Shown in pieces: positions 1 to 52,521 of a stretch of 64,000 nucleotides of DNA. Below the pieces are notes generated by a model that was not told the DNA's origin, did not search any database, and saw only the letters and a program-made list of their open reading frames with translations. Positions within the stretch are counted from its first letter, which is position 1, and the number at the start of each line of letters is the position of its first letter. The position numbers and the translations under genes were made by a program. Where the stretch lies: contig JANXOV010000082.1 in assembly GCA_025357635.1 (NCBI GenBank), positions 1-64,000 of the forward strand, written 5' to 3'. Source of the stretch: Pseudomonadota bacterium (GTDB lineage Bacteria; Pseudomonadota; Gammaproteobacteria; Steroidobacterales; Steroidobacteraceae).

Positions 1-24
1 CCGCTCAATAGAACGACGCCAGCC

Positions 25-1251
25 GTGGATCAAATAGCAGTAAAGAATCAGACAGCCGACCCGATAGAAAACACCGCCTACACCGTCATTTTCGCCATCG
101 CGTTTTGCCACTTGCTCAACGACATGATGCAGTCGTTGCTGCCGGCGATCTATCCGAATCTGAAGGCGGCCTATGGGCTGAACTTTGGCCAGATCGGTGT
201 CGTAACCCTCGTCTATCAGACCACCGCGTCATTGTTACAACCGATGGTGGGTTCGTACGCCGATCGCCGACCGATGCCGTTTTCATTGCCGGCCGGCACC
301 TTGTTTACACTGGGTGGACTCGTTGCGCTGGGACTGGCGCGCAACTATCCGTCGCTGTTGGTGGGAGCCTGCCTGCTCGGTGTGGGTTCATCGGTGTTCC
401 ATCCGGAATCCTCGCGCGTTGCCCGCATGGCGGCGGGCGGCCGGCACGGCTTGGCGCAATCGGTGTTTCAGGTTGGCGGCAATACAGGCACGGCCATCGG
501 TCCGTTATGCGCCGCATTGGTCGTGGTGCGCTGGGGACAATCCAGCCTGGTCGCATTCGCGATGCTCGCGCTGATATCCACGGTAATCCTGTGGAATGTG
601 GGTCTGTGGTATCGACGCCATGGACTGGCTCGCCTCGTCCGCGCAAAAGCACTGCGGCGAACATCAGGGCAACTGCCGCGACGTCAGATAATCATCGGGA
701 TGACGATGTTGCTGGTGCTGATCTTCTCCAAGTATTTCTATCTGACCTCTCTAACCAACTACTACACGTTCTATCTGATTCATAAATTCAACGTATCCGT
801 GGTGGATGCGCAATTGTACTTGTTCGCATTCCTTGCTGCCGTCGCCGTAGGCACGATGGCGGGCGGCCCTTTGGGCGATCGCTTCGGCCGAAAGACGGTG
901 ATCTGGTTCTCCATCCTGGGCGTTTTGCCATTTACCCTGATGCTGCCCTACGCCAGCTTGTTCTGGACCGGTCCGCTGACCGTCGTGATCGGCGTGATTC
1001 TCGCATCCGCCTTTCCCGCCATGGTGGTTTATGCCCAAGAGCTGGTCGTCGGCAAAGTCGGCATGGTCTCCGGACTCGTGTACGGATTTTCGTTCGGCAT
1101 GGGTGGACTTGCCGCCGCCATGCTCGGGGAATTGGCGGATCTGAAAGGAATCGAGTTTGTTTTCTGGGTCTGTTCATTCCTGCCGAGCATCGGAATGCTG
1201 GCGCGCTGGCTGCCGGACGTGCGTGCTGAAGAGAAAACTATTGCACGGTAG
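25..1251 (+). CDS. MFS transporter, fosmidomycin-resistance (Fsr) type
   Basis: Inner-membrane major facilitator exporter of 408 residues, close to the usual length of E. coli Fsr, which pumps out fosmidomycin and related compounds. The protein has about 12 hydrophobic segments. A cytoplasmic-loop motif GSYADRRP lies near residue 76, its second-half counterpart GDRFGRK near residue 285, and a VFHPESSRVA stretch near residue 129 is characteristic of the Fsr branch. The first start codon inside the window is GTG at 25, but the frame stays open back to base 1, so the true start may lie outside and the gene may be 5'-truncated here. It is not obviously coupled to the acyltransferase 63 bases downstream. 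Family assignment is confident; the natural substrate is unknown. Confidence 0.85.
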   Translation: MDQIAVKNQTADPIENTAYTVIFAIAFCHLLNDMMQSLLPAIYPNLKAAYGLNFGQIGVVTLVYQTTASLLQPMVGSYADRRPMPFSLPAGTLFTLGGLVALGLARNYPSLLVGACLLGVGSSVFHPESSRVARMAAGGRHGLAQSVFQVGGNTGTAIGPLCAALVVVRWGQSSLVAFAMLALISTVILWNVGLWYRRHGLARLVRAKALRRTSGQLPRRQIIIGMTMLLVLIFSKYFYLTSLTNYYTFYLIHKFNVSVVDAQLYLFAFLAAVAVGTMAGGPLGDRFGRKTVIWFSILGVLPFTLMLPYASLFWTGPLTVVIGVILASAFPAMVVYAQELVVGKVGMVSGLVYGFSFGMGGLAAAMLGELADLKGIEFVFWVCSFLPSIGMLARWLPDVRAEEKTIAR

Positions 1252-1314
1252 AATACCCCCCCGACACGACGAACTGATCCAAATAATGATCCCTGCTCCT
1301 GGCGTCTTGCCCCT

Positions 1315-1911
1315 ATGATCGATGGTTTCCCGGTCCTCCCGCCGCTCGTGCCGCAGTCGAAGAGCTGGTGGCGCCGCGCGGTCGGCGTGCTCGGGCTGCT
1401 CGTCACCGGCTGGCGTGTCGCCGGCAACATGCCGAACATCCCGAAGTTCGTTCTCATCGTTGCGCCGCACACATCGAACTGGGATTTCTTCTACGGGGCG
1501 CTCGCCTACTTCACGCTGCGCCTCGAAACCGTCTGGCTCGTCAAGGATTCGGCGATCAAAGGATTCTCAGGCCGGCTCGCCCGCCATTTCGGCGCCTCAC
1601 CCATCGATCGCAACCACGCCCACAATGTTGTGCAGGCCAACATTGCCGAGTTCGCAAAGCGTGCGGAGATGATTCTCACGATCACCCCCGAAGGCACGCG
1701 CAAGAAGGTGCCCGATTGGAAGCGCGGCTTTTATCATGTGGCGGTGGGCGCCAAGGTGCCGATCGTACCGGTCGCACTGGATTTCTCCACGCGACGCATC
1801 GTCATCCTCCCGCCCTTCACACCAACCGGCAGGATCGAGCAAGACCTGCCCCAACTCAAAGGGCTTTACCGACGGCAGATGGCGCGGATTCCGGAAAATT
1901 TTTGGGACTAA
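1315..1911 (+). CDS. 1-acyl-sn-glycerol-3-phosphate acyltransferase-like protein (PlsC family)
   Basis: Membrane-associated acyltransferase of 198 residues. The catalytic HX4D motif is present as H52 to D57 in PHTSNWDFF, and the second family block PEGTR spans residues 125-129. PlsC enzymes transfer an acyl chain to lysophosphatidate in phospholipid synthesis. This protein is shorter than housekeeping PlsC (about 240 residues) and resembles stand-alone paralogues whose acceptor is not known. The ATG at 1315 is used; no strong ribosome binding site is visible. The gene ends 33 bases before the glutamine synthetase-like gene, so the two may share a transcript, but nothing links their functions. 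Confidence 0.82.
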   Translation: MIDGFPVLPPLVPQSKSWWRRAVGVLGLLVTGWRVAGNMPNIPKFVLIVAPHTSNWDFFYGALAYFTLRLETVWLVKDSAIKGFSGRLARHFGASPIDRNHAHNVVQANIAEFAKRAEMILTITPEGTRKKVPDWKRGFYHVAVGAKVPIVPVALDFSTRRIVILPPFTPTGRIEQDLPQLKGLYRRQMARIPENFWD

Positions 1912-1944
1912 AGACTCGCAAGTGCCCAATGTGTACTAAGGTAG

Positions 1945-3339
1945 TTGGCCGAACCAGCGTGGAGCAAGCCCATTAAAACGCCGCCCATTGAGCAGAAAGT
2001 CGATCTTGGTGCCGCCCTGAAGGAACGTGGGATCGAGCACGTCAGGATCGGTGTCGTCGACACCGACGGAATCCTGCGCGGGAAACATCTCAGCCGCGAT
2101 AAATTCGCATCCGCGCTCGATAAGAACCTCGGATTCTGCGATGTCATTCTGGGCTGGGACTCGAACGACCAGCTCTACGACAACACCCAGTTCACCGGAT
2201 GGCACACGGCCTATCCCGATGCCACTGTGCGCGTACTGCCGCAGACGCAGCGGGACATTCCCTTTGAGCCGAAAACCGTGCTGTTTCTGGCTGAGTTTGC
2301 CGGCCGCGCCGAATCGATTTGCCCGCGCGGCACGCTGCGGCGGGTACTCGAGCGGGCCGCGAACATGGGGTATCGGGTGAGCGCGGCGGCGGAATTCGAG
2401 TTCTTCATGTTCCAGGAAACGCCGCAGTCCGTCCGTGAGAAGGGATACCGGCAACTCAAGACGATGACGCCCGGCAATTTCGGTTACTCGGTATTGCGCA
2501 GTTCCGTGCATTCGGATCTGTATCAGGAGCTTCTGGATCTGGGTCAGTCCATGCGATTCCCGATCGAGGGACTGCACACCGAAACCGGTCCGGGCGTTCT
2601 CGAAGCGGCGCTGACCTACTGCGATGCATTGGAGGCGGCGGATCGCGCGGCGCTTTTCAAGACTTACACCAAGGTACTCGCGCAGCGCCGCGGCCTGATG
2701 GCTACGTTCATGGCCAAGTGGTCCAACAGCGTGCCCGGCCAGAGCGGCCACCTGCATATCTCGATGCGCACGACGAACGGAGAGAGCGTATTCCACGACC
2801 CGTCCAAGCCGCATGACATGTCCGATACGATGCGTTGGTTTGTCGGCGGCCAGCAAGCCTTGATGCCTGAGCTGCTGGCGATGGTTGCGGGCACGGTGAA
2901 CAGCTATTCTCGGCTTGTGCCAGGGTATTGGGCACCCACGTCTGCGACCTGGGGAGTCGAAAACCGCACGACCGCGTTGCGCGTGATCCGCGGCGGACCG
3001 TCGAGTCAGCGCGTCGAGTATCGGATCGCCGCCGCCGACATCAATCCGTACATCGCGCTCGCTGCGGCAATTGGCTCCGGCTTGTGGGGCATCGAGCATC
3101 GCATCGAACCGGCGGCCCCGATCGCGGCCAATGCCTATGCCATGGCGCATCCGCCGCACCAGCAGCTGCCCGCCACACTCTTCGAAGCCGCTGAACGCCT
3201 TGCAGCGTCCAAGCCGGCGCGCGCACTGTTTGGCGATGCGTTCGTGGAGCATTACGCCGCCACACGGCAGTGGGAGGAGCGCGAGTTTCGCAAAGCGGTC
3301 ACCGACTGGGAACTTGCCCGTTACTTCGAAATCATTTGA
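1945..3339 (+). CDS. Glutamine synthetase-like gamma-glutamyl-amine ligase (PuuA/GlnA4/IpuC type)
   Basis: ATP-dependent ligase of 464 residues from the glutamine synthetase superfamily. The fold blocks are recognisable: AAEFEFFMF with glutamate metal ligands near residue 150, the ETGPGVLE and SGHLHISM blocks, and the late GVENRTTALRVI block. Family members that sit beside an aldehyde dehydrogenase, class I amidotransferase and amine permease attach glutamate to an amine (putrescine in PuuA, ethanolamine in Streptomyces GlnA4, isopropylamine in IpuC). The start is TTG at 1945: an in-frame TAG lies directly upstream at 1942-1944 and AAGG lies at 1938-1941. It heads a run with the dehydrogenases, hydrolase and permease downstream. 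True nitrogen-assimilation GlnA is unlikely given the context. The substrate (ethanolamine or N-methylethanolamine) is inferred. Confidence 0.85.
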   Translation: MAEPAWSKPIKTPPIEQKVDLGAALKERGIEHVRIGVVDTDGILRGKHLSRDKFASALDKNLGFCDVILGWDSNDQLYDNTQFTGWHTAYPDATVRVLPQTQRDIPFEPKTVLFLAEFAGRAESICPRGTLRRVLERAANMGYRVSAAAEFEFFMFQETPQSVREKGYRQLKTMTPGNFGYSVLRSSVHSDLYQELLDLGQSMRFPIEGLHTETGPGVLEAALTYCDALEAADRAALFKTYTKVLAQRRGLMATFMAKWSNSVPGQSGHLHISMRTTNGESVFHDPSKPHDMSDTMRWFVGGQQALMPELLAMVAGTVNSYSRLVPGYWAPTSATWGVENRTTALRVIRGGPSSQRVEYRIAAADINPYIALAAAIGSGLWGIEHRIEPAAPIAANAYAMAHPPHQQLPATLFEAAERLAASKPARALFGDAFVEHYAATRQWEEREFRKAVTDWELARYFEII

Positions 3340-3344
3340 GCTTC

Positions 3345-4739
3345 ATGATGACAGAGACACTCAAGACCATCAGTCCGGTCGACGGCCGCATCTACGTCGA
3401 ACGGCCGCTTGAAACCGGGGCCGGCATCGATCGGGCGCTCGACGCCGCCCAATCTGCGCAGCGCGCCTGGGCTTCGCTGCCGCTGACGGCACGCTGCGCG
3501 ATTCTGGGGAAGGCGGTTGACGCCTTCGTTGCCAAAGCGAACGACATCGCTGCCGAGATCACCTGGCAGATGGGCCGCCCCATTCGTCACGCCCCCGGCG
3601 AGGTCCGGGGCTTCGAGGAGCGCGCGCGCCATATGCTCAGCATCGCCGCCATGGCGCTCGACCCGGTGCGGCCCGATGACAAGACTGGCTTCCAGCGGCA
3701 GATCAAGCGCGTGCCGCTCGGTGTGGTCGCCGTCGTCGCACCCTGGAACTATCCCTATCTGACAGCGGTGAATGCCGTGCTGCCCGCGTTGATCGCAGGC
3801 AATGCGGTCATTCTCAAGCATTCGCATCAGACCCCGCTGTGCGCGGAGCGCTTCGGCGAGGCCTTTGCCAGCGCCGGTGTTCCGACCGGCGTGTTCCAGT
3901 ACCTGCATCTGTCGCACCAGAATACCGCACGGCTGATGGGTGACCCGCGCATCGCCAACGTCTGCTTCACCGGCTCGGTGTCCGGTGGTCGCGCGGTCGT
4001 CGCGGCGACGGCCGCGGGATTCGCCACCTCCGGTTTGGAACTCGGGGGTAAGGATCCCGCCTACGTGCGCGCCGACGCCGATCTTGCGCACGCCATCGAA
4101 ACGCTCACCGACGGCGCCTTCTTCAACGCCGGCCAGTCGTGTTGCGGCATCAAGCGCATCTACGTGGCGGCAACGCTGTACAAAGGCTTCGTTGCCGGCG
4201 TGGTGGATCTGACGAAGACGTACCAGTTAGGGTCCCCGCTCGACCCGGAAACGACGCTCGGGCCGGTGCTGCGCAGTGCCGCAGCCGAGGCGGTCCGCTC
4301 GCAGGTGCGCGAGGCCAAGGCGCGCGGGGCGCGCCAGCTCATCGACGAAACAGGATTCCCGGCGAGCGTCACCGGCACGCCCTATCTTGCGCCGCAAGTG
4401 CTGGTCGATGTCGATCACTCGATGGCGATCATGCGCGAGGAGACCTTCGGGCCCGCGGTCGGCATCATGAGTGTCGCCTCGGACGACGAAGCAGTGCGCC
4501 TGATGAACGACAGCGAGTTCGGTCTGACGGCCGCCATTTTCTCGGCTGACGCGGCGCGCGCCGAAACACTGGGCGATGCACTGGAGACCGGCACGGTTTT
4601 CCTGAACCGCTGCGACTATCTGGATCCCGCGCTGGCCTGGACCGGCGTCAAGAACTCGGGACGAGGCTGCACCCTGTCGCCGGTCGGTTTTGAGCAAATG
4701 ACGCGGCCCAAGTCCTATCACTTCAAGGTCACGACATGA
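3345..4739 (+). CDS. NAD(P)-dependent aldehyde dehydrogenase
   Basis: Aldehyde dehydrogenase of 464 residues. The general-base glutamate lies in ELGGKDPAYV and the catalytic cysteine in NAGQSCCGIK, which carries two adjacent cysteines; the cofactor-binding APWNYPYL block is also present. Two consecutive ATG codons at 3345 and 3348 follow the ligase stop by a few bases, so either is possible; the open frame extends further upstream inside the ligase gene but has no reason to be used. In the proposed pathway it oxidises the gamma-glutamylated aldehyde made by the next gene to the acid, the role PuuC plays in putrescine breakdown. It overlaps the alcohol dehydrogenase by four bases (ATGA), which implies translational coupling. 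Confidence 0.88.
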   Translation: MMTETLKTISPVDGRIYVERPLETGAGIDRALDAAQSAQRAWASLPLTARCAILGKAVDAFVAKANDIAAEITWQMGRPIRHAPGEVRGFEERARHMLSIAAMALDPVRPDDKTGFQRQIKRVPLGVVAVVAPWNYPYLTAVNAVLPALIAGNAVILKHSHQTPLCAERFGEAFASAGVPTGVFQYLHLSHQNTARLMGDPRIANVCFTGSVSGGRAVVAATAAGFATSGLELGGKDPAYVRADADLAHAIETLTDGAFFNAGQSCCGIKRIYVAATLYKGFVAGVVDLTKTYQLGSPLDPETTLGPVLRSAAAEAVRSQVREAKARGARQLIDETGFPASVTGTPYLAPQVLVDVDHSMAIMREETFGPAVGIMSVASDDEAVRLMNDSEFGLTAAIFSADAARAETLGDALETGTVFLNRCDYLDPALAWTGVKNSGRGCTLSPVGFEQMTRPKSYHFKVTT

Positions 4740-5911
4740 GCGCAGTGTTACGCGGCAATTGGAATTATCCGACCACGATCTGGGCCGGACCGGGCCGTAT
4801 CGCCGAGCTTGCGGAGGCGTGTTCGCGCACCAGCATCCAGCGGCCTCTGATCGTCACCGATGAGGGGTTGGCCACTGCGCCGATGATCACGAGCGCGCTC
4901 GCCGCCCTCAAACATGCCGCGCTGTTCGCTGCCGTCAGAGGCAACCCCGCCAGCAGCCACGTCGAGGCGGGCCTGCGCGCTTATCGCGCCGGTGGCCACG
5001 ATGGCGTCGTGGCATTCGGCGGTGGATCGGCGCTCGATGCCGGCAAGGTTGTGGCATTCATGTCCGGACAGACGCGCCCGCTGTGGGACTTCGAGGATAT
5101 CGGCGACTGGTGGACGCGAGCGGACCCCGCCGGCATCGCGCCGGTGGTTGCGGTCCCCACCACCGCGGGCACCGGCTCGGAAGTCGGCCGCGCCGGCGTC
5201 ATCCTCAACGAGGAGACCCACCAGAAGAAGATCATCTTCCACCCTCAGATGATGCCGCGCATCGTGATTGCCGATCCGGAACTCACCATCGGCCTGCCGC
5301 GTGCCGTGACCGCCGCCACCGGCATCGACGCCTTCGTGCATTGCTTCGAGGCATTCTGTGCACCCGGATTTCATCCGCTCGCCGATGGCATTGCACTCGA
5401 AGGCATGCGCCTTATCCAGCGCTTCCTGCCGCGCGCCTTCGCCGACGGCAACGACATCGAGGCCCGAGCGAACATGCTGGCCGCCGCCTCGATGGGCGCC
5501 ACGGCCTTTCAGAAGGGTCTGGGCGGCGTGCACGCAATCGCCCACCCGGTCGGTTCGTGGTTCAACACACACCACGGATTGACGAATGCCGTCATCCTGC
5601 CCTACGTCATGGAGTTCAACAGGCCTGCGATTGCCGACAAGACGGACGTGATCGCGCGGGCGCTCGACCTGCCTGCGCGCGGCTTCGACGGTTTCATGGA
5701 ATGGGTGCTGCAGATGCGCCGCGACCTCGGAATACCGCATTCGCTGGCCGACATCGGGGTAAGCGCGGAGAAGGCGGCGATCATCGGCCGCGAGGCGGCG
5801 CTGGATCCATCGGCGGCGGGCAATCCGATACCGGTCGACGCCGCGCAACTGGAGCGAATCTTCCGCGCCGCGGTCAGTGGAAAACTCGACGGCGGGGTGC
5901 GCGGCCCATGA
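4736..5911 (+). CDS. Iron-containing (group III) alcohol dehydrogenase
   Basis: Alcohol dehydrogenase of 391 residues in the iron-dependent family. The nucleotide-binding GGGSALDAGK block is near residue 97, TTAGTGSEVGR near residue 139, and the metal ligands are supplied by the GIDAFVHCFEAF block and by histidines in the HAIAHPVGSWFNTHHG region. It starts at an ATG overlapping the aldehyde dehydrogenase stop and ends in an ATGA overlap with the amidotransferase-like gene. A hydroxyl-oxidising enzyme is not part of the standard Puu putrescine route, so its presence points to an amino alcohol such as ethanolamine, whose glutamylated form would need oxidation first to an aldehyde and then to an acid. 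Confidence 0.9.
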   Translation: MSAVLRGNWNYPTTIWAGPGRIAELAEACSRTSIQRPLIVTDEGLATAPMITSALAALKHAALFAAVRGNPASSHVEAGLRAYRAGGHDGVVAFGGGSALDAGKVVAFMSGQTRPLWDFEDIGDWWTRADPAGIAPVVAVPTTAGTGSEVGRAGVILNEETHQKKIIFHPQMMPRIVIADPELTIGLPRAVTAATGIDAFVHCFEAFCAPGFHPLADGIALEGMRLIQRFLPRAFADGNDIEARANMLAAASMGATAFQKGLGGVHAIAHPVGSWFNTHHGLTNAVILPYVMEFNRPAIADKTDVIARALDLPARGFDGFMEWVLQMRRDLGIPHSLADIGVSAEKAAIIGREAALDPSAAGNPIPVDAAQLERIFRAAVSGKLDGGVRGP

Positions 5912-6753
5912 GCGGCCCTCGGATCCTGATCATCGACGGCAACGTTGCCGCGATTCGCGCGCGGCAGATGGCGGCGCTCGGCTACGACTCGGGCACCGGT
6001 TACGCCCGCGTCCTGCATCGCATCGACGCCTCGCTGCACATCGATGTCCTGACGGCTGCAGACGGCGCTTCGCTCCCAACCGGTGTGGGGCTCGACAGTT
6101 ACGACGGCGTCACCATGACAGGGTCAGCGCTCAATATCTACAATGGCGGCGAACCCGTCACCCGGCAGATCGAACTGGCCAAGGCCGTGTTGTCCGCCGG
6201 CGTGCCGTTCTTCGGAAGTTGCTGGGGACTGCAGGTCGCGGTCACCGCCGCGGGCGGTGATGTTCGCGCCAATCCGCGCGGCCGCGAGTTTGGTTTCGCG
6301 CGGCGCATTCTGCTCAGCGATGCCGGCCGCGAGCACCGCTTGTTCGCTGGCAAGCCCGTCGCGTTCGAGGCGCCGACGATTCATCGTGACGAGATTGCCT
6401 CGCTGCCGGCCGGCGCAGTGACACTGGCGGCCAATGACTTCGGTGTGCAGGCGGCCTCCTTCACCCACGGACCCGGCACGTTCTGGGGCGTGCAGTACCA
6501 CCCGGAGTATGACTACATCGACATCGCCGCCGCAGCCGAGCGCTACGGCGAGACGCTGGTCACTGAAGGCATGTTTCGCGACGTTGCGGCGCTGGCGGCA
6601 TTCGCCGCTGAACTTCGCGCCTTGCAGACGAACCCATCCGACGCGCCGCTGCTGTGGAAACACGGCCTGGGTCCGGCCATGCGCAGCGAGGCGCTTCGCC
6701 TGCTTGAAATCCGCAACTGGCTGGAAGATGTCGTGCGGCCCCGCATCGCATGA
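5908..6753 (+). CDS. Class I glutamine amidotransferase-like hydrolase
   Basis: Protein of 281 residues with a class I amidotransferase fold. The nucleophile is C105 in FFGSCWGLQ and the remaining triad is H198 and E200 in VQYHPEYD. In the amine context the likely job is hydrolysis of a gamma-glutamyl amide to release glutamate and the oxidised amine, as PuuD does, rather than ammonia transfer to a synthetase. The ATG at 5908 overlaps the upstream stop (ATGA); the frame continues upstream antisense-like inside the dehydrogenase, but that extension has no family similarity. The carboxy-terminal 60 residues extend beyond the minimal domain. A GMP-synthase-type amidotransferase role cannot be excluded from sequence alone. 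Confidence 0.82.
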   Translation: MSGPRILIIDGNVAAIRARQMAALGYDSGTGYARVLHRIDASLHIDVLTAADGASLPTGVGLDSYDGVTMTGSALNIYNGGEPVTRQIELAKAVLSAGVPFFGSCWGLQVAVTAAGGDVRANPRGREFGFARRILLSDAGREHRLFAGKPVAFEAPTIHRDEIASLPAGAVTLAANDFGVQAASFTHGPGTFWGVQYHPEYDYIDIAAAAERYGETLVTEGMFRDVAALAAFAAELRALQTNPSDAPLLWKHGLGPAMRSEALRLLEIRNWLEDVVRPRIA

Positions 6754-8135
6754 CGCAAATCGCGGTCGGACTGAACAGAACGCTCAGCGGCCTGCACCTG
6801 TGGGGCATCGCCGTCGGGCTGGTGATTTCCGGGGAATATTTCGGCTGGAGCTACGGCTGGGCGCAGGCCGGGACCCTCGGCTTCCTGGTCACCACGACGT
6901 TCATCGCTGTGATGTACACGACATTCATTTTCAGTTTCACCGAACTCACGACCGCGATACCGCATGCGGGCGGTCCATTCGCCTACAGCTACCGCGCCTT
7001 CGGTCCGGCCGGCGGCTATGTGGCGGGCTTTTCGACGCTGATCGAGTTCGTGTTCGCGCCACCGGCCATCGCCTTGGCGATCGGCGCATACCTGAACGTG
7101 CAGTTTCCGCAAATCGACGCGCGTACTGCCGCGGTCGGCGCCTACTTCGTTTTCATGTCCCTCAACATCGCCGGTGTGTCGGTCGCGGCAACCTTTGAGC
7201 TGGTCGTGACAGTGCTTGCGATCGGCGAGTTACTGGTCTTCATGGGTGTGGTGTCGAGCGGCTTCTCGTGGTCGAATTTTGCGCACCATGGATGGGCCGG
7301 CGCTGACCACCCCACGGCAGCGACCATCAGCGGAATTTTCGCCGCCATCCCCTTCGCGATCTGGTTCTTTCTCGCTATCGAAGGAGCCGCCATGGCCGCC
7401 GAGGAAGCCAAGGACCCCACGCGAACCATTCCGCGCGCCTACATCGGCGGCATTTTGACGCTCGTGGCACTGGCATTCGGCACCATGATTTTTGCCGGCG
7501 CGGTCGGGGACTGGAAATCCCTCGCCAACATCAACGATCCCCTGCCGCAGGCGATGAAGATCGTCGTCGGCGCCAGGAGCGGCTGGCTGCATCTGCTGGT
7601 GTGGATCGGCCTGCTCGGACTCATTGCCTCATTCCACGGCATCATCATGGGCTACTCGCGCCAGATATTCGCACTTGCCCGGGCAGGCCTGCTGCCAAGG
7701 ATGCTCGCCGCGATTCATCCGCGCTGGCGGACTCCGCACCGGGCGATCCTCGCCGGCGGTGCGATTGGCATCGCCGCCATCTACTCCGACAAGCTCGTCC
7801 GCATTGCCGGCCAGCCGCTCACCGCCAGCATCGTGACCATGTCGGCGCTCGGCGCAATCGTCATGTACATCATGAGCCTGCTGAGCCTGATGCGGCTGAG
7901 GCGCCTTGAACCGAACCTTGAACGGCCGTTTCGCGCGCCGTTATATCCCTGGTTTCCGCTCACGGCGCTGGCCATTGCATCCGTTTCGCTGGTCGCGATT
8001 GTTTATTACAACCTGCTCGTTTCGCTTTCGTTTGCAGTTCTCGGGGCCGCCGGCGCGATCGTGACCTATTGGCGGACAATGCGGGGATTGAATGAACAAA
8101 CCGATCCAATGCTGCGTCGCCCCGAAGGCGCCTAG
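6750..8135 (+). CDS. APC-family amino acid/amine permease, ethanolamine-permease-like
   Basis: Inner-membrane transporter of 461 residues with about 12 hydrophobic segments. The amino-terminal part, including ISGEYFGWSYGWAQAG and the following HAGGPFAY block, resembles proteobacterial ethanolamine permeases (Eat/EutP group of the APC superfamily), which import ethanolamine by secondary transport. It starts at an ATGA overlap with the hydrolase gene and is the last gene of the plus-strand amine run; the facing FAD dehydrogenase gene ends 23 bases beyond it. The resemblance to ethanolamine permeases is the best substrate clue in this locus, but other small amines or amino acids remain possible. 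Confidence 0.85.
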   Translation: MTQIAVGLNRTLSGLHLWGIAVGLVISGEYFGWSYGWAQAGTLGFLVTTTFIAVMYTTFIFSFTELTTAIPHAGGPFAYSYRAFGPAGGYVAGFSTLIEFVFAPPAIALAIGAYLNVQFPQIDARTAAVGAYFVFMSLNIAGVSVAATFELVVTVLAIGELLVFMGVVSSGFSWSNFAHHGWAGADHPTAATISGIFAAIPFAIWFFLAIEGAAMAAEEAKDPTRTIPRAYIGGILTLVALAFGTMIFAGAVGDWKSLANINDPLPQAMKIVVGARSGWLHLLVWIGLLGLIASFHGIIMGYSRQIFALARAGLLPRMLAAIHPRWRTPHRAILAGGAIGIAAIYSDKLVRIAGQPLTASIVTMSALGAIVMYIMSLLSLMRLRRLEPNLERPFRAPLYPWFPLTALAIASVSLVAIVYYNLLVSLSFAVLGAAGAIVTYWRTMRGLNEQTDPMLRRPEGA

Positions 8136-8158
8136 GCCGCCCGCTCACACCCTCCGGA

Positions 8159-10588
8159 TCAGGCGCGCAAGCGCACGTTGTCGGGATCGAACAGCGGCTC
8201 GCGGCCCACGACGGCGCAGCGGCGCTCACCGAGGATTTCCACTTCCAGTTCCGTTCCCGCCTTCGCAAGATCCGTGCGCACATAAGCAAGCGCAATGCTC
8301 TTCCCGAGTCGATAGCCGTAGCCGCCCGAGGTGACGAGCCCCACGGTTTCGTCGCGATGAAAGACAATCGAGACAGCGGCCGCGTCCGCATCCGCTGCAT
8401 CCACGATCAAGGGAACGAAGCGCTCGCGCGGACCTGCCACGGCTTCACGCCGCAGCGCCTCTTGCCCGATGAAGCCGCCGGGCTTGTCGAGTTTGACGAA
8501 GCGATCCAGCGAGGCCATGAACGGCGTGTACTCGGTGGTCAAGTCCGCTTTCCAGGAGCGGTAGCATTTCTCCAGGCGCAGGCAATCCATGGCGTACAGC
8601 CCGTAGTCACCGATGCCGAGGCTCTCGCCGGCATCCATAAGCAAGTCGTAGACCGACAACAGGTGCTCCACCGGCAAATGCAGTTCCCAGCCCAGCTCGC
8701 CGACGTAGTTCACGCGCATGGCGATCGCCTGCGTGTAGCCGATCTCCATGCGCCGCATCGCAAGCCATGGAAATGCCGCATTTGACAAGTCTGTATGCGT
8801 CAGACGAGCGAGCAATTCACGGGATTTCGGACCCGCGACGATGAGCGTGCCGTAACGGTTGGAGACATTCGCAAGCTGCACATCGCCCGCGCCGGCCGGC
8901 AGATGCGCCTGCAGCCAGTGCTCGTCATGCCGCTCGCCGGCGGCGGCGCTGATCAGCCAATAGCGATCGGGTCCGAAACTGGTGAGCGTCATTTCGGTGA
9001 CGATGCCGCCGTTCGGAGCGCAAAAATAATTCAAGGCGGTGCGGCCCGGTTTGGGCAGCGAACCGGAGACCATGTGATCCAGCCACGCCGCAGCGCCGCG
9101 GCCGGTAAGTTCGAACTTGGTGAAGCCGGGCAAATCCAGCACGGCGACGCGCTCGTGCACGGCCTGGCATTCGCGCGCAACCGCTGCGTGCCAGGCGGGC
9201 CGGCGAAACGACAGTTCCGGTCCGCTCACCGATGTGTGCGGATCGGGGAAATACACCGCGCGCTCCCAACCGCCGCGCGCCCCGAACCTCGCGCCCTTGT
9301 CCTTCAGCCGTTGATACACGGGCGAGGTCTTTGCCGGCCGGCCCTCCGGCCGCTCTTCGGCCGGATACCCGATGCCGTATTCATGGCGATAGGTCTCCAA
9401 TGCCTTGGCCAGCGTGAATTTCTGGTTTGCGTATTCCAGATAGCGGCGCGAATCCAGCGGCCACATGTCCCATTCCGGCTGCCCGCGGGCAACCCATTCG
9501 GCGATGATCTTGCCTGCCCCTCCGGCCTGAGCGATGCCGAATGTGAAGGCGCAGCAATGGAAAAAATTCGGCAAGCCGGGCGCGGGTCCGATCAACGGAT
9601 TGCCATCCGGCGCATATGGTATCGGGCCATTGATCACGGTCTTGACGCCGATCGTGCCGAGTATGGGCACGCGCTCGCAGGCGTCCTGGATATACGCTTC
9701 CAGCCGGTCGGTCTCATCGGCGAACAATTGATTCGCGAATTCATCCGGAATCTGCTCCAGCCAATGCGCCTTGGGCTGTGACTCGTAGGGTCCGAGGATG
9801 AGTCCGTGGCGCTCCTGCCGCAGGTAATAGCTGATGTCCGGGTCGCGCAGCAGCGGCAAACGATCTGCCCCGCGCGCCACCAGTTCAGGGATGTCCTCGG
9901 TCACCATGTATTGATGCGCCAGGACCACCATCGGCAGATACGCCCCAACCATCGCCGCGACTTCGCCACCCCGATAACCGGCGGCATTGATGACGGACTC
10001 AGCGCGGATCTCGCCGTTGTTGGTGATGATGCGCCACTCGCCGCTGCGCTCGCGCTCAATGGCCGTGACGCGTGTATTGCGATGGATCTCAGCGCCGGCA
10101 TCGCGCGCGCCCTTGGCCAGCGCCTGCGTCAACTGCGCCGGATCGATATCGCCGTCGTAGGGGTCGTACAGTCCCGCCAGAATGTCATGCGTTTCGATGA
10201 ACGGATGGCGCGCGCGGATGTCCGCCGGACTCAGCATCTGAAACTCAATGCCCTGCGCGCGGGCCTGCGACAGCACATGCCGAAACTCATCGACCCGGTC
10301 CTGCGTGTGTGCCAGACGGATGCTGCCGGTGATGTGGTAGTTGATGTCGTAGCCGACGCGCTCGGCAAGTTCAGCATATAGCCGGGTGCTGTGCCGTTGC
10401 AGCTTGATGAGATTCCAGGAGGTGGAAAAATTCGGGCAATTCCCGGCCGCATGCCAGGTGGAACCGGCCGTGAGCTGATCGCGCTCCAGCAACACCGCAT
10501 CGGTGAGCCCGAGCTGAGTGAGGTGATACAAGGCGCTGCAGCCCACTGCACCACCGCCGATGACTACTACTTTCGCGTGCGTTTTCAT
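8159..10588 (-). CDS. FAD-dependent dehydrogenase with GcvT domain, dimethylglycine/sarcosine dehydrogenase-like (copy 1)
   Basis: Protein of 809 residues. Residues 1-380 form a D-amino-acid-oxidase-type FAD domain that opens with VVVIGGGAVGCSALYHL. The histidine in GSTWHAAGN occupies the position that carries covalently bound FAD in dimethylglycine and sarcosine dehydrogenases. The carboxy-terminal half is an aminomethyltransferase (GcvT) domain that binds tetrahydrofolate and traps the released C1 unit. Family members oxidatively demethylate N-methylglycines. The ATG at 10588 overlaps the stop of the upstream paralogue (ATGA), so the longer open frame is not used. It is likely the last gene of the mttB-led operon. 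The exact substrate is not readable; dimethylglycine, sarcosine or N-methylethanolamine are candidates. Confidence 0.87.
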   Translation of the reverse strand: MKTHAKVVVIGGGAVGCSALYHLTQLGLTDAVLLERDQLTAGSTWHAAGNCPNFSTSWNLIKLQRHSTRLYAELAERVGYDINYHITGSIRLAHTQDRVDEFRHVLSQARAQGIEFQMLSPADIRARHPFIETHDILAGLYDPYDGDIDPAQLTQALAKGARDAGAEIHRNTRVTAIERERSGEWRIITNNGEIRAESVINAAGYRGGEVAAMVGAYLPMVVLAHQYMVTEDIPELVARGADRLPLLRDPDISYYLRQERHGLILGPYESQPKAHWLEQIPDEFANQLFADETDRLEAYIQDACERVPILGTIGVKTVINGPIPYAPDGNPLIGPAPGLPNFFHCCAFTFGIAQAGGAGKIIAEWVARGQPEWDMWPLDSRRYLEYANQKFTLAKALETYRHEYGIGYPAEERPEGRPAKTSPVYQRLKDKGARFGARGGWERAVYFPDPHTSVSGPELSFRRPAWHAAVARECQAVHERVAVLDLPGFTKFELTGRGAAAWLDHMVSGSLPKPGRTALNYFCAPNGGIVTEMTLTSFGPDRYWLISAAAGERHDEHWLQAHLPAGAGDVQLANVSNRYGTLIVAGPKSRELLARLTHTDLSNAAFPWLAMRRMEIGYTQAIAMRVNYVGELGWELHLPVEHLLSVYDLLMDAGESLGIGDYGLYAMDCLRLEKCYRSWKADLTTEYTPFMASLDRFVKLDKPGGFIGQEALRREAVAGPRERFVPLIVDAADADAAAVSIVFHRDETVGLVTSGGYGYRLGKSIALAYVRTDLAKAGTELEVEILGERRCAVVGREPLFDPDNVRLRA

Positions 10589-13044
10589 TTCATGCGTTCG
10601 TTGTTCGGATCGTACCAGGGCTTGAGTTGGACATTGGCCGCGTAGCGTTCGCAGGCCACTTCGACCTGCCATTTCCCGCCGGCGAGCCACTCGGGCGTGA
10701 CGCCTTGCGGACAGCTCACATAGCCCATGCCGATGGAGCGATCAAGACGATGACCCCATGCGCCGGAGCGGATCGAGCCCACGATGGCCCCGTCACGAAT
10801 GAGGGGCTCCTCGTGATACAGCATGGGCGAGGTGGCGGATGAGTCCTCGAGCATCACCTGCACCAGGCGGCGCGTGGCGGGAGCGGAGGCTTTGCGCCTG
10901 GCCAATGCCTCACGTCCGAGAAAGCCGCCGGGCTTGTCCCAGGCCACGGTGAAGGCGAGTCCGGACTGGATGGGATCGTCTTCATCCGCGATATCGTGGC
11001 CCCAATGCCGGTAGCCCTTCTCCACGCGGCAGGCAGCCATCGCGTGATAGCCCGCGTGCTTCAGGCCAAGCGCCGCGCCCGCCGCCAGCAGGCGCTCGTA
11101 GACATCCAGGCAATGCTCGGTGGGCAGGTACAACTCCCAGCCGAGTTCGCCGACATAACTGATACGGCTGGCTCGCACTGTGGCATAGCCGATTTCGATC
11201 TCTCGCGACCAGCCGAAGGGATGCGCAGTGTTGGAAAGATCCGCGCCCGACAAGCCCTGCAGCAGCTCGCGGCTTCGCGGACCCATCACGCCCAGCATGG
11301 CGATGCCCGACCCCACGTCCGTCACCGTGCAGCGCGCATCGCGCGCCGCGATGTGGCGCCGCAGCCAGGCAAGATCGCGCGTCTGACACACAGCCGAGGT
11401 GACCACCCAGAACACCTCCTCGCTGATGCGCGTGATGGTGAGGTCAGCCTCGATACCGGCTCGCTCGTTGAGCCATTGCGTGTAGACAATGCGCCCCACC
11501 GGCACATCAACCGAGGCGGTGCACAAATAGTTCAGCAGTGAGCAGGCTTGCGGGCCCTGCACCAGAAACTTGGCGAAGCTGCATTGATCAAATAGCGCGA
11601 CGTGATCGCGTGCAGCCAGACACTCGGCGCGCGTGGCGTCGAACCAGTTTTGCCGGCCGAAGGAATATTCGTAGGCGGGACTCTCACCAGGCGCCGCGTA
11701 CCAGTTCGGCCGCTCCCAACCGGCGGTCTCGCCCATGCACGCGCCCGCCGCGACCAGCCGGTCATGCAGCGCGCTGCGGCGCGCGCCGCGCGCCGTGCGG
11801 TACTGATAGTAAGGCCAGTGCATCGCATACAGCAGGCCGAGCGTCTCAACAGTTCTGTCGTGCAGGTATTTGCGATTGGCCTGAAACGGCATCACGCGCC
11901 GCACGTCGACATCGGCAAGATCCATCGGCGGGTGCCGGTCCCGGATCCACTCCGCCATGACCTTGCCCACGCCGCCGCTGGCCGCGATGCCGACGGAGTT
12001 GAAACCCGTGGCCACGAACAAATCACGGACCTCGGGGGTTTCTCCCAGGTAGTAGCGGTCATCGGGCGTGAAGCTCTCGGGTCCATTGAAAAACAGCTGG
12101 ATGCCGGTCTGCGCCAGCGCCGGTACGCGCTGCACCGCAGCTTCCAGGATGGGCTCGAACTGCTCGTGATCCGCCGGCAGCGAGTCGAAACAAAATCCCT
12201 CCGGGATGCCCTGCATACCCCACGGTTTGGCGATGGGCTCAAAACATCCCAGCAGCAGCTTGCCCGCGTCTTCCTTGTAATAGGCGCACTCATCCTGCGC
12301 CCGCAGCACCGGCAGATTCTTGGGCAGATCAGGGATCGGCTCGGTGACGATGTAGAAGTGCTCGGCGGCGTGCAATGGCACGGCCGCACCGCAGTCGGCC
12401 GCAAGACGGTGCGACCACATGCCCGCGCACAACACCACCGTATCGGCGGCGATGAATCCGTCCTGCGTCTCCACGCCGGTAGCGCGGCCACCTTCGATGC
12501 GGATTTTTTTGACAGGCGTGTTCTCGAAAATCTTTGCGCCGCGCAGCTTGGCGCCCTTGGCGAGCGCCTGAGTCGTATCGATCGGATTTGTCTGGCCATC
12601 TTTGGCGATGAAGATCCCGCCCGCCAGGTCATCAGTCCTCACCAGCGGCCAGCGCTCCTGAATCTGTTCCGGCGAGAGCACGTCGATCTCCAGGCCGAAG
12701 CCTTTGCCCATGGAAGCGCCGCGCTTCAGTTCCTCGAAGCGCGCCACCGTCTTGGCCAGGCTGATGGAGCCGTTCTGTTTGAACCCCGTGGCTTGTCCGG
12801 TCTCGGACTCCAGCGAAAGAAACAGATTCGCGGTGTACTGGGCAAGTTCGGTGAGATTGCGCGTGGCCCGCAGCTGCCCGACCAGCCCGGCCGCATGCCA
12901 GGTGGTGCCGCAGGTAAGCTGGCGGCGCTCGAGCAGCACCACGTCCGTCATGCCCAGCTTCGCCAGATGGTAGGCGATCGAGCAACCGGCAACTCCGCCG
13001 CCCACGATGACGACGCTCGCGCGGCTGGGAATCCCTTGAGACAC
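10585..13044 (-). CDS. FAD-dependent dehydrogenase with GcvT domain, dimethylglycine/sarcosine dehydrogenase-like (copy 2)
   Basis: Second DAO plus GcvT protein, 819 residues from GTG 13044 or 832 from ATG 13083. The GTG start leaves a 7-base gap after mttB; the ATG start would overlap mttB by about 30 bases. The domain order matches the neighbouring copy: an FAD motif SVVIVGGGVAGCSIAYHL, the covalent-FAD histidine in GTTWHAAGL, and a tetrahydrofolate-binding GcvT half. The sequences differ widely outside the motifs, so this is not a recent duplication and the two copies probably act on successive methylation states of one substrate. Its stop overlaps the next gene by four bases. Confidence 0.87.
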   Translation of the reverse strand: MSQGIPSRASVVIVGGGVAGCSIAYHLAKLGMTDVVLLERRQLTCGTTWHAAGLVGQLRATRNLTELAQYTANLFLSLESETGQATGFKQNGSISLAKTVARFEELKRGASMGKGFGLEIDVLSPEQIQERWPLVRTDDLAGGIFIAKDGQTNPIDTTQALAKGAKLRGAKIFENTPVKKIRIEGGRATGVETQDGFIAADTVVLCAGMWSHRLAADCGAAVPLHAAEHFYIVTEPIPDLPKNLPVLRAQDECAYYKEDAGKLLLGCFEPIAKPWGMQGIPEGFCFDSLPADHEQFEPILEAAVQRVPALAQTGIQLFFNGPESFTPDDRYYLGETPEVRDLFVATGFNSVGIAASGGVGKVMAEWIRDRHPPMDLADVDVRRVMPFQANRKYLHDRTVETLGLLYAMHWPYYQYRTARGARRSALHDRLVAAGACMGETAGWERPNWYAAPGESPAYEYSFGRQNWFDATRAECLAARDHVALFDQCSFAKFLVQGPQACSLLNYLCTASVDVPVGRIVYTQWLNERAGIEADLTITRISEEVFWVVTSAVCQTRDLAWLRRHIAARDARCTVTDVGSGIAMLGVMGPRSRELLQGLSGADLSNTAHPFGWSREIEIGYATVRASRISYVGELGWELYLPTEHCLDVYERLLAAGAALGLKHAGYHAMAACRVEKGYRHWGHDIADEDDPIQSGLAFTVAWDKPGGFLGREALARRKASAPATRRLVQVMLEDSSATSPMLYHEEPLIRDGAIVGSIRSGAWGHRLDRSIGMGYVSCPQGVTPEWLAGGKWQVEVACERYAANVQLKPWYDPNNERMK

Positions 13045-13051
13045 GGTGTGT

Positions 13052-14620
13052 CTAGGCCTTGCGGCCGGGCAGCATGGAATCACGCGGCAGCTTCACCGGA
13101 AACTTGCTGCGTATCTCGGCATCCACCGCTCCTGCGATGTGCGAGGGGAAGTGCGAGGTGAGGATCTCCTCGACCTTGCGGTGGGCGCGCTGCGTGACAT
13201 CCAGACCGCCCTGCTCGAGCCATTCGTTCGGGCTCTTGCGGTCACCCACTGCCGGATACAAGTATTCCGTCTGCATCAACTGCAAGGTCTGATCGCTGCC
13301 TAGGAAATGACCCGGTCCGTTCAGGCACACGTCCTTGATGACATCGAACGACAGGCGCTCTTCACTGACCTCGATGCCTTTGATGGTTCGCTGCGCCGAG
13401 CCGATGATGTCATTGTCGATGATCAGACTCTCCAGCGAGAAACCCAGCAGACTTGCATGCATGCCGGCGGACTCGTAGATGAGATTCGCGCCGGAGTTTC
13501 CGACCAGCGCATGATTGAGCCCCTTCTCGGCGCCCGATTGCGCATCGGGAACCTTGGCATCCGTCATGCCGGAGGCCGTGCCGCCGGTCAGATCATAGAA
13601 CTGCGCCATTTGCGCAGAAGCCGAGGACAGCAACGCCTGCTCCGGACTGCCACCGGACATCGCGCCCGTACGCAGATCGGACACGAAACACCAGGTTCCG
13701 AAAATAGCAGGATGTCCGGGCTTGATCGCATTGACGTAGACCAGACCGGCGAGCACCTCGGCAACTTCCTGCGCGAGCGCCCCTGCCAGCGCCGCCGGCG
13801 CCGTGGCGCCGGCCTGCCCCGCCGACAGCAGCAACACCGGCATGCCGCCAGCGACCGCCAGTTCAAGGCAGCGGCAGGCATCGGTTGCGAACTTCATCGG
13901 GGGAACCACGAAGCAATTGGACTGGCTGACAAAGGGACGCTCGCGCCATTTATCTTCCCCGCCGGCAATGCTGTGCAGCATCTGAAACGAGGCGGCCAGG
14001 TGCTCGGGTTGAACCCAGCTGCTGCCCACATGCTTGGTGGTGCTCGACACCGCGGCATAGCAGGTGTTGAAGTCCATCTCGTAAGGATCAGGAATGTCGC
14101 GCGGCACCACCGCTCGCTGGAAGAAATGGATGTGGTCCATCAAGTCCACGATGCGGCCGATGTCGTACAGATCCTGAATGGTCGAACCGCGATATGCGTT
14201 GTGCACATCGACCATGTTCACGGCGGCGCCCGCCGTACCGAAATAGGTCCGGGTGCCCCAAGGCTCCAGATCGTGGCGGGGATCCTGGGCGAACAGTGGG
14301 AAACGGCGCGCCGCCTTGGCCAGCGTGTCTTCCACCAGGGACTGCGGAAACAGCAGCCGGCCCCGATCGTTCAGCGTGCACCCGGCGCGGGTCAGAAGCT
14401 CCACCCCCGTGTCGGGCGCGTCCGCAAACCCGACCTCGCTTAGCAAACGCAAGGCGGTGGCGTGAATGGCCGCAATGTCGGTTTCGCTGAGCGGCCGATA
14501 GCGGCCTCCGGACATGCCGGGGCGCACCGGCCGCAGATGATCCGGAAGCGGTGCGGCTCGCTGCGCGCGGCGCAGGTCCCGGCTGGAGGGTCGTCGCGCT
14601 ATGCAGCCTTTGTCATTCAC
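13052..14620 (-). CDS. MttB-family (trimethylamine methyltransferase) protein without pyrrolysine
   Basis: Corrinoid-dependent methyltransferase family protein of 522 residues. The family includes pyrrolysine-containing trimethylamine methyltransferase of methanogens and non-pyrrolysine relatives such as the glycine betaine methyltransferase MtgB. There is no in-frame amber codon here, so it belongs to the second kind. GTG at 14620 is chosen because AGGAGA lies 8 bases upstream; the longer frame beginning at 14719 lacks such a site. It is first in the minus-strand operon with two demethylating dehydrogenases. No corrinoid carrier protein or activating enzyme is encoded in the window. The substrate is probably a quaternary or tertiary amine. 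Confidence 0.85.
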   Translation of the reverse strand: MNDKGCIARRPSSRDLRRAQRAAPLPDHLRPVRPGMSGGRYRPLSETDIAAIHATALRLLSEVGFADAPDTGVELLTRAGCTLNDRGRLLFPQSLVEDTLAKAARRFPLFAQDPRHDLEPWGTRTYFGTAGAAVNMVDVHNAYRGSTIQDLYDIGRIVDLMDHIHFFQRAVVPRDIPDPYEMDFNTCYAAVSSTTKHVGSSWVQPEHLAASFQMLHSIAGGEDKWRERPFVSQSNCFVVPPMKFATDACRCLELAVAGGMPVLLLSAGQAGATAPAALAGALAQEVAEVLAGLVYVNAIKPGHPAIFGTWCFVSDLRTGAMSGGSPEQALLSSASAQMAQFYDLTGGTASGMTDAKVPDAQSGAEKGLNHALVGNSGANLIYESAGMHASLLGFSLESLIIDNDIIGSAQRTIKGIEVSEERLSFDVIKDVCLNGPGHFLGSDQTLQLMQTEYLYPAVGDRKSPNEWLEQGGLDVTQRAHRKVEEILTSHFPSHIAGAVDAEIRSKFPVKLPRDSMLPGRKA

Positions 14621-14712
14621 CGTGCTCTCCTGAGTCTGATATCGAACAACGAACAGATGGCCAGCACAGCACGTGAATTTGCACCGCTGATCGGAACACC
14701 ACGCTGAATTAT

Positions 14713-14740
14713 TTGCCATTCCACAGACATTGGCTAGTGT
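14713..14740 (+). promoter_or_regulatory. Possible promoter for the GNAT gene in the mttB-GNAT divergent region
   Basis: The 283 bases between the GTG of the MttB gene (14620) and the ATG of the acetyltransferase (14904) must hold both promoters. A sigma70-like pair reading rightwards is TTGCCA at 14713-14718 and TAGTGT at 14735-14740 with a 16-base spacer. The match is imperfect and the leader would be long, so this is a weak call. No clear repeat or riboswitch fold was recognised in the region. Confidence 0.25.
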
Positions 14741-47263: not shown

Positions 47264-47953
47264 TCACCGCCGTTCGCGCCCCCTGAAAGATGCCAACGCC
47301 GACAATTGCGCTCGCGCCTCTGACAGGCGCACGCCGGGCGGCAGGTGCGAGACGATGAATCGGGTGACGTGCGCTGCGCCGATGCTGGCGCCGCGTTGGT
47401 CCGCTGCCGCATCGAACTCGCAGCGCACGCAGCCGCCAAAATCCGCGTGCGGCGCACCCAGATCGGAAATCTGCCCGGACACGCAGCGCGCATCGCCGGT
47501 CGCCGCCAGCACGCCGGCATAAGCGGCCGGAAATGGTTTTGCGCCACGGGCCGGCGCCGAGGCAACGATCAGCGCCCCGCCATTCACCGCGGCGGCGATG
47601 GCCTGCGCCAGTGGCGCCCGATCCTGGCGCAGTCCCAGGCTCAGATGCAGCAACTGGACAGGCTGTTGCAGCAGCCAGTGAATTGCCGCGGCAATGGCCG
47701 CGGGCGTGGAAACGCCGCTCGCATCGATGGCCTGCGCCATGAACAGCTCGCAAGGCTTCAGGGCGCCATGGATCACGCGAGCGACGCGGGTGCCGTGATC
47801 GAAAGTGTCAGGGATCGGCTCCAGTTCATCGACACCGCTTCCAGTGTCAGTGAAGCGGCGCTGCGCCGCCACGGGCACCGTACATTGCGCATTCAGGCCG
47901 CTGTCGACGATGCCGACCCGCCACCGCGATTCAGGCACGCGACGGCTCGTCAT
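47264..47953 (-). CDS. qhpE: Subtilisin-like leader peptidase of quinohemoprotein amine dehydrogenase maturation
   Basis: Small S8-family serine protease of 229 residues with no signal peptide. The triad is D17 (GIVDSGL), H53 (DHGTRVARV) and S190 (GASIGAAHV). QhpE of Paracoccus removes the 28-residue leader from QhpC after the thioether crosslinks are made, before export. ATG 47953 overlaps the qhpF end by 23 bases, which supports cotranslation with the rest of the operon. It lacks the usual prodomain and is among the smallest subtilases, as expected for a dedicated cytoplasmic processing enzyme. Confidence 0.87.
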   Translation of the reverse strand: MTSRRVPESRWRVGIVDSGLNAQCTVPVAAQRRFTDTGSGVDELEPIPDTFDHGTRVARVIHGALKPCELFMAQAIDASGVSTPAAIAAAIHWLLQQPVQLLHLSLGLRQDRAPLAQAIAAAVNGGALIVASAPARGAKPFPAAYAGVLAATGDARCVSGQISDLGAPHADFGGCVRCEFDAAADQRGASIGAAHVTRFIVSHLPPGVRLSEARAQLSALASFRGRERR

Positions 47954-50727: not shown

Positions 50728-50747
50728 GTTCATCTCCCCTGGGCGCC

Positions 50748-51068
50748 TCATTTTTTCGGAAACACCGCATCCAGCTCGCGCCAGTCGTTCCATGCGGACG
50801 CGGACCCGGCATCCCAGTTCGGATACGTGGTCAGCGTGTCGGGCACCTGCGCCGGCCACCAGCACGGATCCGAACAGCCGTACAAATCCGCCTCCATCGG
50901 CTGGCACAGGGAGGCGACGCCGCCAAACGGGTCCACTTCCCAGCCCGGGTCGAACGTCGTGGCACAACCGGCCACGCTTTCCATCGCCACCACTTCCTTC
51001 ACATGGCCCTGATCGGCTGCATCGAGCAGCAGTTCGGCCTTCTTGTTCGTGGGTTTGAAACCATTCAT
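50748..51068 (-). CDS. qhpC: Quinohemoprotein amine dehydrogenase gamma subunit precursor, CTQ-containing
   Basis: Catalytic small subunit of 106 residues. Residues 1-28 fit the cleaved leader, and mature numbering then starts at M29. With that offset C35-E44, C55-D61 and C69-D77 are the three Cys-to-acid thioether pairs (mature C7-E16, C27-D33, C41-D49), and C65 with W71 (mature C37 and W43) form the cysteine tryptophylquinone. These positions are the same as in the crystallised Pseudomonas putida enzyme. ATG 51068 overlaps the qhpD stop (ATGA). QhpD makes the crosslinks, QhpG oxidises the tryptophan and QhpE cuts the leader. Confidence 0.93.
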
Positions 51069-52492: not shown

Positions 52493-52521
52493 TGGCTCGT
52501 TGACTCCTCGTGCCGTCCCCA

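Follow-up and report, generated by a model that had tools for sequence, protein, structure and literature searches.

Which compound is degraded by an operon that places a glutamine synthetase (GS)-like ligase beside two dehydrogenases, a hydrolase and a permease? We analysed such a run of five genes at positions 1945–8135 of a 64,000-nucleotide stretch of DNA (hereafter the window) from contig JANXOV010000082.1 of a Steroidobacteraceae bacterium. The genes probably constitute an ethanolamine-utilisation operon that is independent of the ammonia-lyase EutBC, ethanolamine being the most likely substrate judging from the encoded proteins and their relatives. Ethanolamine from phospholipids is an abundant source of nitrogen and carbon, and the usual markers for its use are EutBC or, in marine settings, EtoX with its operon.

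A five-gene operon

Profile matches confirmed five genes of the predicted families at the predicted positions, all on the plus strand (Table 1). The genes are consecutive, as the original prediction held, but the iron-containing alcohol dehydrogenase (Fe-ADH) does not precede the aldehyde dehydrogenase (ALDH) as listed there; the actual order is ligase, ALDH, Fe-ADH, hydrolase and permease. The ATGA overlaps described among four of the genes are present and number exactly three (at 4736, 5908 and 6750). They link the final four genes to one another, and a gap of 5 bases separates ligase from ALDH without overlap. The putative start of the ligase is the TTG at 1945, which is the sole in-frame common start codon upstream of the conserved region. 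A scan of positions 1–8400 for promoters and terminators returned fewer matches than shuffled sequence.

Relatives of the ligase numbered at least 578 in genome contigs, and the locus counts given here refer to the best 80 of them, whose ligases resemble that of the window by selection. The arrangement is not due to chance, because ligase, ALDH and Fe-ADH lie in the same order and on one strand in 41 of the 53 genome loci with enough flanking sequence; a chance run of genes was rejected on this basis. ALDH was found in 66 of the 80 loci (some of these matches are distant, at 25–33% identity, and may be unrelated ALDHs), Fe-ADH in 58 and both in 54. A glutamine amidotransferase (GATase)-type hydrolase occurred in 25 loci and an N-formylglutamate amidohydrolase (NFGH) in 16 (GATase only, 24; NFGH only, 15; both, 1; neither, 40). 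A permease like that of the window was present in 23 loci and an RpiR regulator in 14.

In the pathway that we propose from gene content, catalytic residues, relatedness, synteny and linkage, ethanolamine would be taken up by the permease, and the ligase would couple its amine, at the expense of ATP, with the gamma-carboxyl group of glutamate. The hydroxyl group of the resulting gamma-glutamylethanolamide would be oxidized to an aldehyde by Fe-ADH and the aldehyde to gamma-glutamylglycine by ALDH, from which the hydrolase would release glutamate and glycine. The N-acyl tag would keep the amino group of the aldehyde intermediate unreactive. This course of glutamylation, two oxidations and release of glutamate and glycine was already part of the original prediction, and good support for it comes from the permease family, the kinship of the dehydrogenases with those of known ethanolamine operons, the conserved gene order, the loss of the ammonium-site flap residue from the ligase and the fold of the hydrolase.

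An apparent ligase exchange relative to known ethanolamine operons

A proteobacterial operon with both the alcohol and the aldehyde step had been thought less described, but such operons have been published. According to PMC10132767, Phaeobacter MED193 has one gamma-glutamylated ethanolamine operon, which is induced during growth on phosphorylethanolamine. It comprises RpiR, the gamma-glutamylglycine amidohydrolase GGAH, the tripartite ATP-independent periplasmic (TRAP) transporter EtoVWX, the ethanolamine gamma-glutamylase ETAGA and the aldehyde and alcohol dehydrogenases GAADDH and GETADH. For C. salexigens and A. tumefaciens, that paper credits Vetting et al. 2015 with this route, and it treats Csal_0678 as the EtoX homologue, so that Csal_0679, the protein in structure 5dm3, carries the next locus tag. 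The pathway itself is already known; what is new here is that the ligase belongs to another branch of the GS family, one so far uncharacterised.

We compared the window with ten operons of this known type, namely nine plasmid loci and one Pelagibius locus chosen for holding ligase, ALDH and ADH; L131 and L133 form no part of the comparison. The genes of a Ruegeria plasmid locus (L134) are ordered as in MED193, and its ligase shares 75.3% identity with 5dm3. The window ALDH was 51.3–54.6% identical to the ALDH of all ten known-type operons, and the window Fe-ADH 54.6–58.5% identical to that of all ten. The catalytic Cys and Glu motifs of ALDH and the D/H/H/H metal-ligand motifs of Fe-ADH are present, and the hydrolase has SCWG...YHPE motifs whose Cys, His and Glu are invariant in 24 aligned rows. 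On these catalytic residues, the enzymes of the operon look active.

Phylogenetic trees were built from every second window-type Fe-ADH and ALDH row (37 and 43 rows, respectively) and from 27 window-type ligase rows. In the ALDH tree, the ten known-type loci formed one clade, which joined a Microvirga-containing subgroup of window-type sequences with an SH-like approximate likelihood ratio test (SH-aLRT) value of 100. The ten loci also formed one clade in the Fe-ADH tree, where they joined a similar Microvirga-containing window-type subgroup (support 89). In an approximately unbiased test on the ALDH tree, placing the window-type ALDHs in a single clade was not rejected (p = 0.348), so any ligase exchange may have run in either direction and the tree may be rooted in more than one way.

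The correspondence between the two operon types is clearest in two cases. Roseiarcus (L105) and S. meliloti (L135, known type) share the six-gene order RpiR, NFGH, permease, ligase, ALDH and ADH. The proteins are, in this order, 40, 43, 68, 33, 58 and 65% identical, the 33% being that of the ligase. Labrys (L112) also has the gene order of the S. meliloti locus, with identities of 41, 47, 47, 33, 62 and 67%, in which the 47% for NFGH is a match to a Ruegeria protein. Judged from the sequences, both operon types have the dehydrogenases in common but not the ligase, which thus appears to have been replaced in situ by one of another GS-like clade. That operons should match in all but this apparent swap is the strongest argument for ethanolamine. 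We also checked 25 of the 80 genome loci and found a known-type ligase in only one of these window-type genomes (Pelagibius, 66%), as expected if both ligases do one job.

The AlphaFold model of the hydrolase (predicted local distance difference test (pLDDT) score of 95.3) was nearest in fold to Arabidopsis gamma-glutamyl peptidase 1 (Z 26.0, root-mean-square deviation (rmsd) 2.9, 242 aligned residues, 19% identity), and the runner-up from another protein had a Z of 23.4. Its best profile match, 9k7i, is also gamma-glutamyl peptidase 1 (E = 2.2e-17), tied with GMP synthase.

The ligase forms a separate clade

In alignment, the ligase retains the metal, glutamate and ATP residues, with residue roles taken from PMC6529630. 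The GS flap Glu (E327 of Salmonella GS) is replaced by Trp, whereas a GSI-like paralogue in the same genome (L006) retains the Glu. At this position, the same source gives Trp for the polyamine ligase PauA7 and Phe for GlnA4. The ligase scored below the cut-offs of the NCBIfam GS models (227.1 bits against 429.15 for TIGR00653, 207 against 469.6 and 87.4 against 845). The GS fold, like the conservation of residues that bind metal, glutamate and ATP, would also fit an ordinary GS standing beside unrelated dehydrogenases. We find this highly improbable: we rejected a plain GS on the scores below cut-off, the Trp in the flap and the conserved operon with ADH and ALDH.

Among solved structures, the ligase model from AlphaFold (pLDDT 88.3) best matched 5dm3 (Z 45.1, rmsd 2.4, 373 aligned residues), titled as a glutamine synthetase from C. 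salexigens, Csal_0679. Fold comparison does not separate the GS-like families, with known-type ligases, GmaS and true GS all at Z 39–45. By contrast, the ligase tree set the window clade (27 rows, SH-aLRT 95) apart from the known clade, which consists of the ten loci, 5dm3 and a Brucella structure (SH-aLRT 99). Membership of the window ligase in the published ethanolamine (Csal_0679) clade was ruled out by this tree. The window clade joined pTC1 ipuC and a Shinella ligase instead. A tblastn search of plasmids revealed the same gap, with ten records matching the ligase at 54.5–61.4% identity, followed by others at 42.5% and below. Searches of the open-licence PMC library listed no paper that describes this ligase clade.

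Permease linkage and absence of EutB

Of all the genes in the operon, the permease is the only one to pass a cut-off among the NCBIfam models listed; the other four match broad families only. We examined 98 genomes, comprising the source genome and its relatives, and found a TIGR00908 permease at E ≤ 1e-100 in 10 and the ligase at E ≤ 1e-100 in 18. Nine of the ten permease genomes were also ligase genomes (Fisher p = 2.8e-7, or 2.8e-5 within the family alone, both uncorrected for kinship). The two genes lay within about 7.4 kb of each other in eight of these nine genomes and on different contigs in the ninth. All 30 permeases in our alignment (A4) match TIGR00908, but they were found using the window permease and so are not independent.

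The absence of EutBC, claimed originally for the window, extends to the whole genome for EutB: a search that covered EutB only gave no match to PF06751 in the source genome (4.29 Mb, 182 contigs, rated 100% complete) and a match in an E. coli control genome. EutB was present in 4 of the 98 genomes, none of which carried the ligase, although this non-overlap, taken alone, lacks statistical significance (Fisher p = 1).

Alternative substrates

Several observations weigh against ethanolamine. The ligase is 30.3–34.2% identical to the ligases of the ten known-type operons, so its substrate is not readable from sequence. The TIGR00908 permease, at the threshold above, is missing from 9 of the 18 ligase-bearing genomes. 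The source genome also encodes a second TIGR00908 permease (L167:3921-5732; G000:C103:4398-5705) that scores 519.8 bits, is 62% identical to the window permease and has no ligase adjoining it; an FGGY kinase, an Fe-ADH_2 protein and an NmrA-like protein are encoded nearby. Furthermore, a match to the PotA reference was found in the stretch of 18 of the 80 genome loci, and two plasmid loci (L027:6768-16989 and L028:7492-15474) combine a window-clade ligase with a class-III aminotransferase and a spermidine/putrescine-type ATP-binding cassette (ABC) transporter, without Fe-ADH. Some members of the clade may use diamines, and these two plasmid loci may represent a diamine offshoot.

The context of these plasmid loci, together with PotA/PotD-like genes downstream in L036, L056 and L057, is what would be expected if the ligase acted on diamines or polyamines and the operon were a Puu-like polyamine route. 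We regard this as very unlikely for the window. The conserved partner of the ligase is Fe-ADH, and not an amine oxidase or transaminase (a class-III aminotransferase occurs in 6 of the 80 loci), and an alcohol dehydrogenase would be useless on a diamine. The ligase scored 195.8 bits against the gamma-glutamylputrescine synthetase model NF045547, far under its cut-off of 650, and identity as PuuA was rejected for this reason.

A stronger competitor, which we nevertheless consider unlikely, is that the ligase differs since its substrate differs, and that the operon applies the same chemistry to another small amino alcohol, for example L-alaninol, 3-aminopropanol, serinol or N-methylethanolamine. 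In alignment, the acceptor-site columns of the window clade are unlike those of the Csal_0679-type clade, and the window ligase is nearer to pTC1 ipuC (38.6% identity) than to the ethanolamine clade, in a grouping with a support of 91 that is not starred. Ligases of both kinds also occur in a rhizobitoxine-like cluster, window-type in L026 and Csal-type in L137, whose amino alcohol is presumably serinol. Two dimethylglycine-dehydrogenase-like genes and an MttB-family gene adjoin the window operon, and gamma-glutamyl-L-alaninol is an intermediate of the Ipu route published in PMC6776027. Against this possibility, the permease belongs to the ethanolamine permease family, the operon lacks a P450, and the gene order of the Roseiarcus locus and every protein in it other than the ligase match the known-type operons. 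Moreover, a known-type ligase was not found in 24 of the 25 window-type genomes tested.

For ethanolamine as the substrate, a wider reading follows that we favour with some reserve. The window clade, which lies closer to IpuC than to Csal_0679, would be a second group of gamma-glutamylethanolamide synthetases, swapped in place, and it would serve as the ethanolamine ligase for a large part of the Proteobacteria, including Microvirga, Thalassospira, Inquilinus, Bradyrhizobium, Labrys, Photobacterium, Legionella and many uncultured lineages. If the clade does make gamma-glutamylethanolamide, a widespread set of bacteria consumes ethanolamine by means of genes whose present annotation is no more than glutamine synthetase, and surveys for EutBC, EtoX or Csal_0679-type ligases would overlook them. 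Two ligase clades in otherwise matching operons would also offer a clean case for studying what governs the choice of amine in GS-like ligases.

Neighbouring and related gene clusters

Immediately downstream of the operon and convergent with it, positions 8162–14719 of the minus strand encode two fusions of an FAD oxidoreductase with GcvT (of the dimethylglycine/sarcosine dehydrogenase kind) and an MttB-family methyltransferase. Since FAO-like genes recur close to the operon in three other loci (L034, L035 and L106), the breakdown of choline/betaine may be encoded next to that of ethanolamine, with glycine as the end point of both. Farther along the window, positions 47931–54372 of the minus strand hold a probable quinohaemoprotein amine dehydrogenase cluster, which would be a second amine-oxidising system (Table 1).

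Table 1. Positions of the operon genes and of the probable quinohaemoprotein amine dehydrogenase cluster in the window
Feature	Position	Strand	Basis or remark
GS-like gamma-glutamyl-amine ligase, predicted gamma-glutamylethanolamide synthetase	1945..3339	+	PF00120, 327.9 bits
Aldehyde dehydrogenase, predicted gamma-glutamyl-aminoacetaldehyde dehydrogenase	3345..4739	+	PF00171, 401 bits
Iron-containing alcohol dehydrogenase, predicted gamma-glutamylethanolamide dehydrogenase	4736..5911	+	PF00465/PF25137
Class-I amidotransferase-like hydrolase, predicted gamma-glutamylglycine hydrolase	5908..6753	+	PF00117
Ethanolamine permease (Eat family, APC superfamily)	6750..8135	+	TIGR00908, 583.5 bits (cut-off 381.75)
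ABC transporter	47931-49652	-	Quinohaemoprotein amine dehydrogenase cluster
Radical-SAM protein	51065-52525	-	Quinohaemoprotein amine dehydrogenase cluster
Quinohaemoprotein amine dehydrogenase alpha subunit	52522-54372	-	Four Qn_am/haem domains

Two known-type operons on plasmids of Aminobacter (L160:12010-17335) and Paracoccus (L161:12023-15110) adjoin bhcRABCD or bhcBCD, and these beta-hydroxyaspartate-cycle genes hint at the fate of the C2 unit. We also observed two clusters, in Rhizobium (L026:1021-11753) and Paraburkholderia (L137:2859-10338), that encode an aminotransferase, a transferase dependent on pyridoxal phosphate, a fatty-acid desaturase, a gamma-glutamyl hydrolase, a LysE exporter and a GS-like ligase, which is window-type in Rhizobium and Csal-type in Paraburkholderia. 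The Paraburkholderia ligase (57.7% identical to 5dm3, without ALDH or ADH) stands outside all our trees. These clusters may be akin to those for rhizobitoxine biosynthesis, with a glutamyl tag on an amino-alcohol precursor as a possible role of the ligase.

Comparison with known systems

The EutBC ammonia-lyase pathway, of which EutB was not found in the source genome, has the same starting compound and a different chemistry. The Puu pathway of E. coli resembles the window operon in having a ligase, an ALDH and a class-I GATase-type hydrolase that act on gamma-glutamylated intermediates. It differs in its ligase, the window protein lying far under the gamma-glutamylputrescine synthetase cut-off, and in using an FAD oxidase instead of an ADH.

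The nearest named ligase in our tree is IpuC of the isopropylamine (Ipu) pathway of Pseudomonas KIE171 and Paenarthrobacter TC1, which likewise proceeds through a gamma-glutamyl amino alcohol. In the Ipu route, however, a P450 makes the hydroxyl group and hydrolysis precedes oxidation of the alcohol (PMC6776027); a scan of the ten genes at positions 25–14719 revealed neither a P450 nor a ferredoxin or reductase.

The GlnA4 cluster of S. coelicolor (SCO1610-SCO1615) shares a GS-like ligase, an ALDH and an amidotransferase with the window, and in other streptomycetes an ethanolamine/amino-acid permease also belongs to the GlnA4-type cluster; a route to gamma-glutamylglycine was proposed for GlnA4 (PMC6529630). 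A short-chain dehydrogenase (SDR) occupies the place of Fe-ADH in that cluster. An Arthrobacter locus (L165) whose gene set (GS, SDR, ALDH and gamma-glutamyl hydrolase) resembles that around GlnA4 (SCO1613) has a ligase on the Csal_0679 side, apart from that of the window; its ALDH stands outside our ALDH tree.

The operons of the Phaeobacter/C. salexigens type differ from that of the window in their ligase clade and in their hydrolase, which is of the N-formylglutamate amidohydrolase type where that of the window is of the PF00117 GATase type. The Phaeobacter operon also has a TRAP transporter in place of an Eat permease and includes RpiR; no such regulator was seen among the scanned neighbours of the window operon, where the contig begins only 1.9 kb upstream. 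Both types would nevertheless carry out the same chemistry, with ALDH and Fe-ADH of the same families (51–59% identity) and with the same succession of ligase, then ALDH, then ADH.

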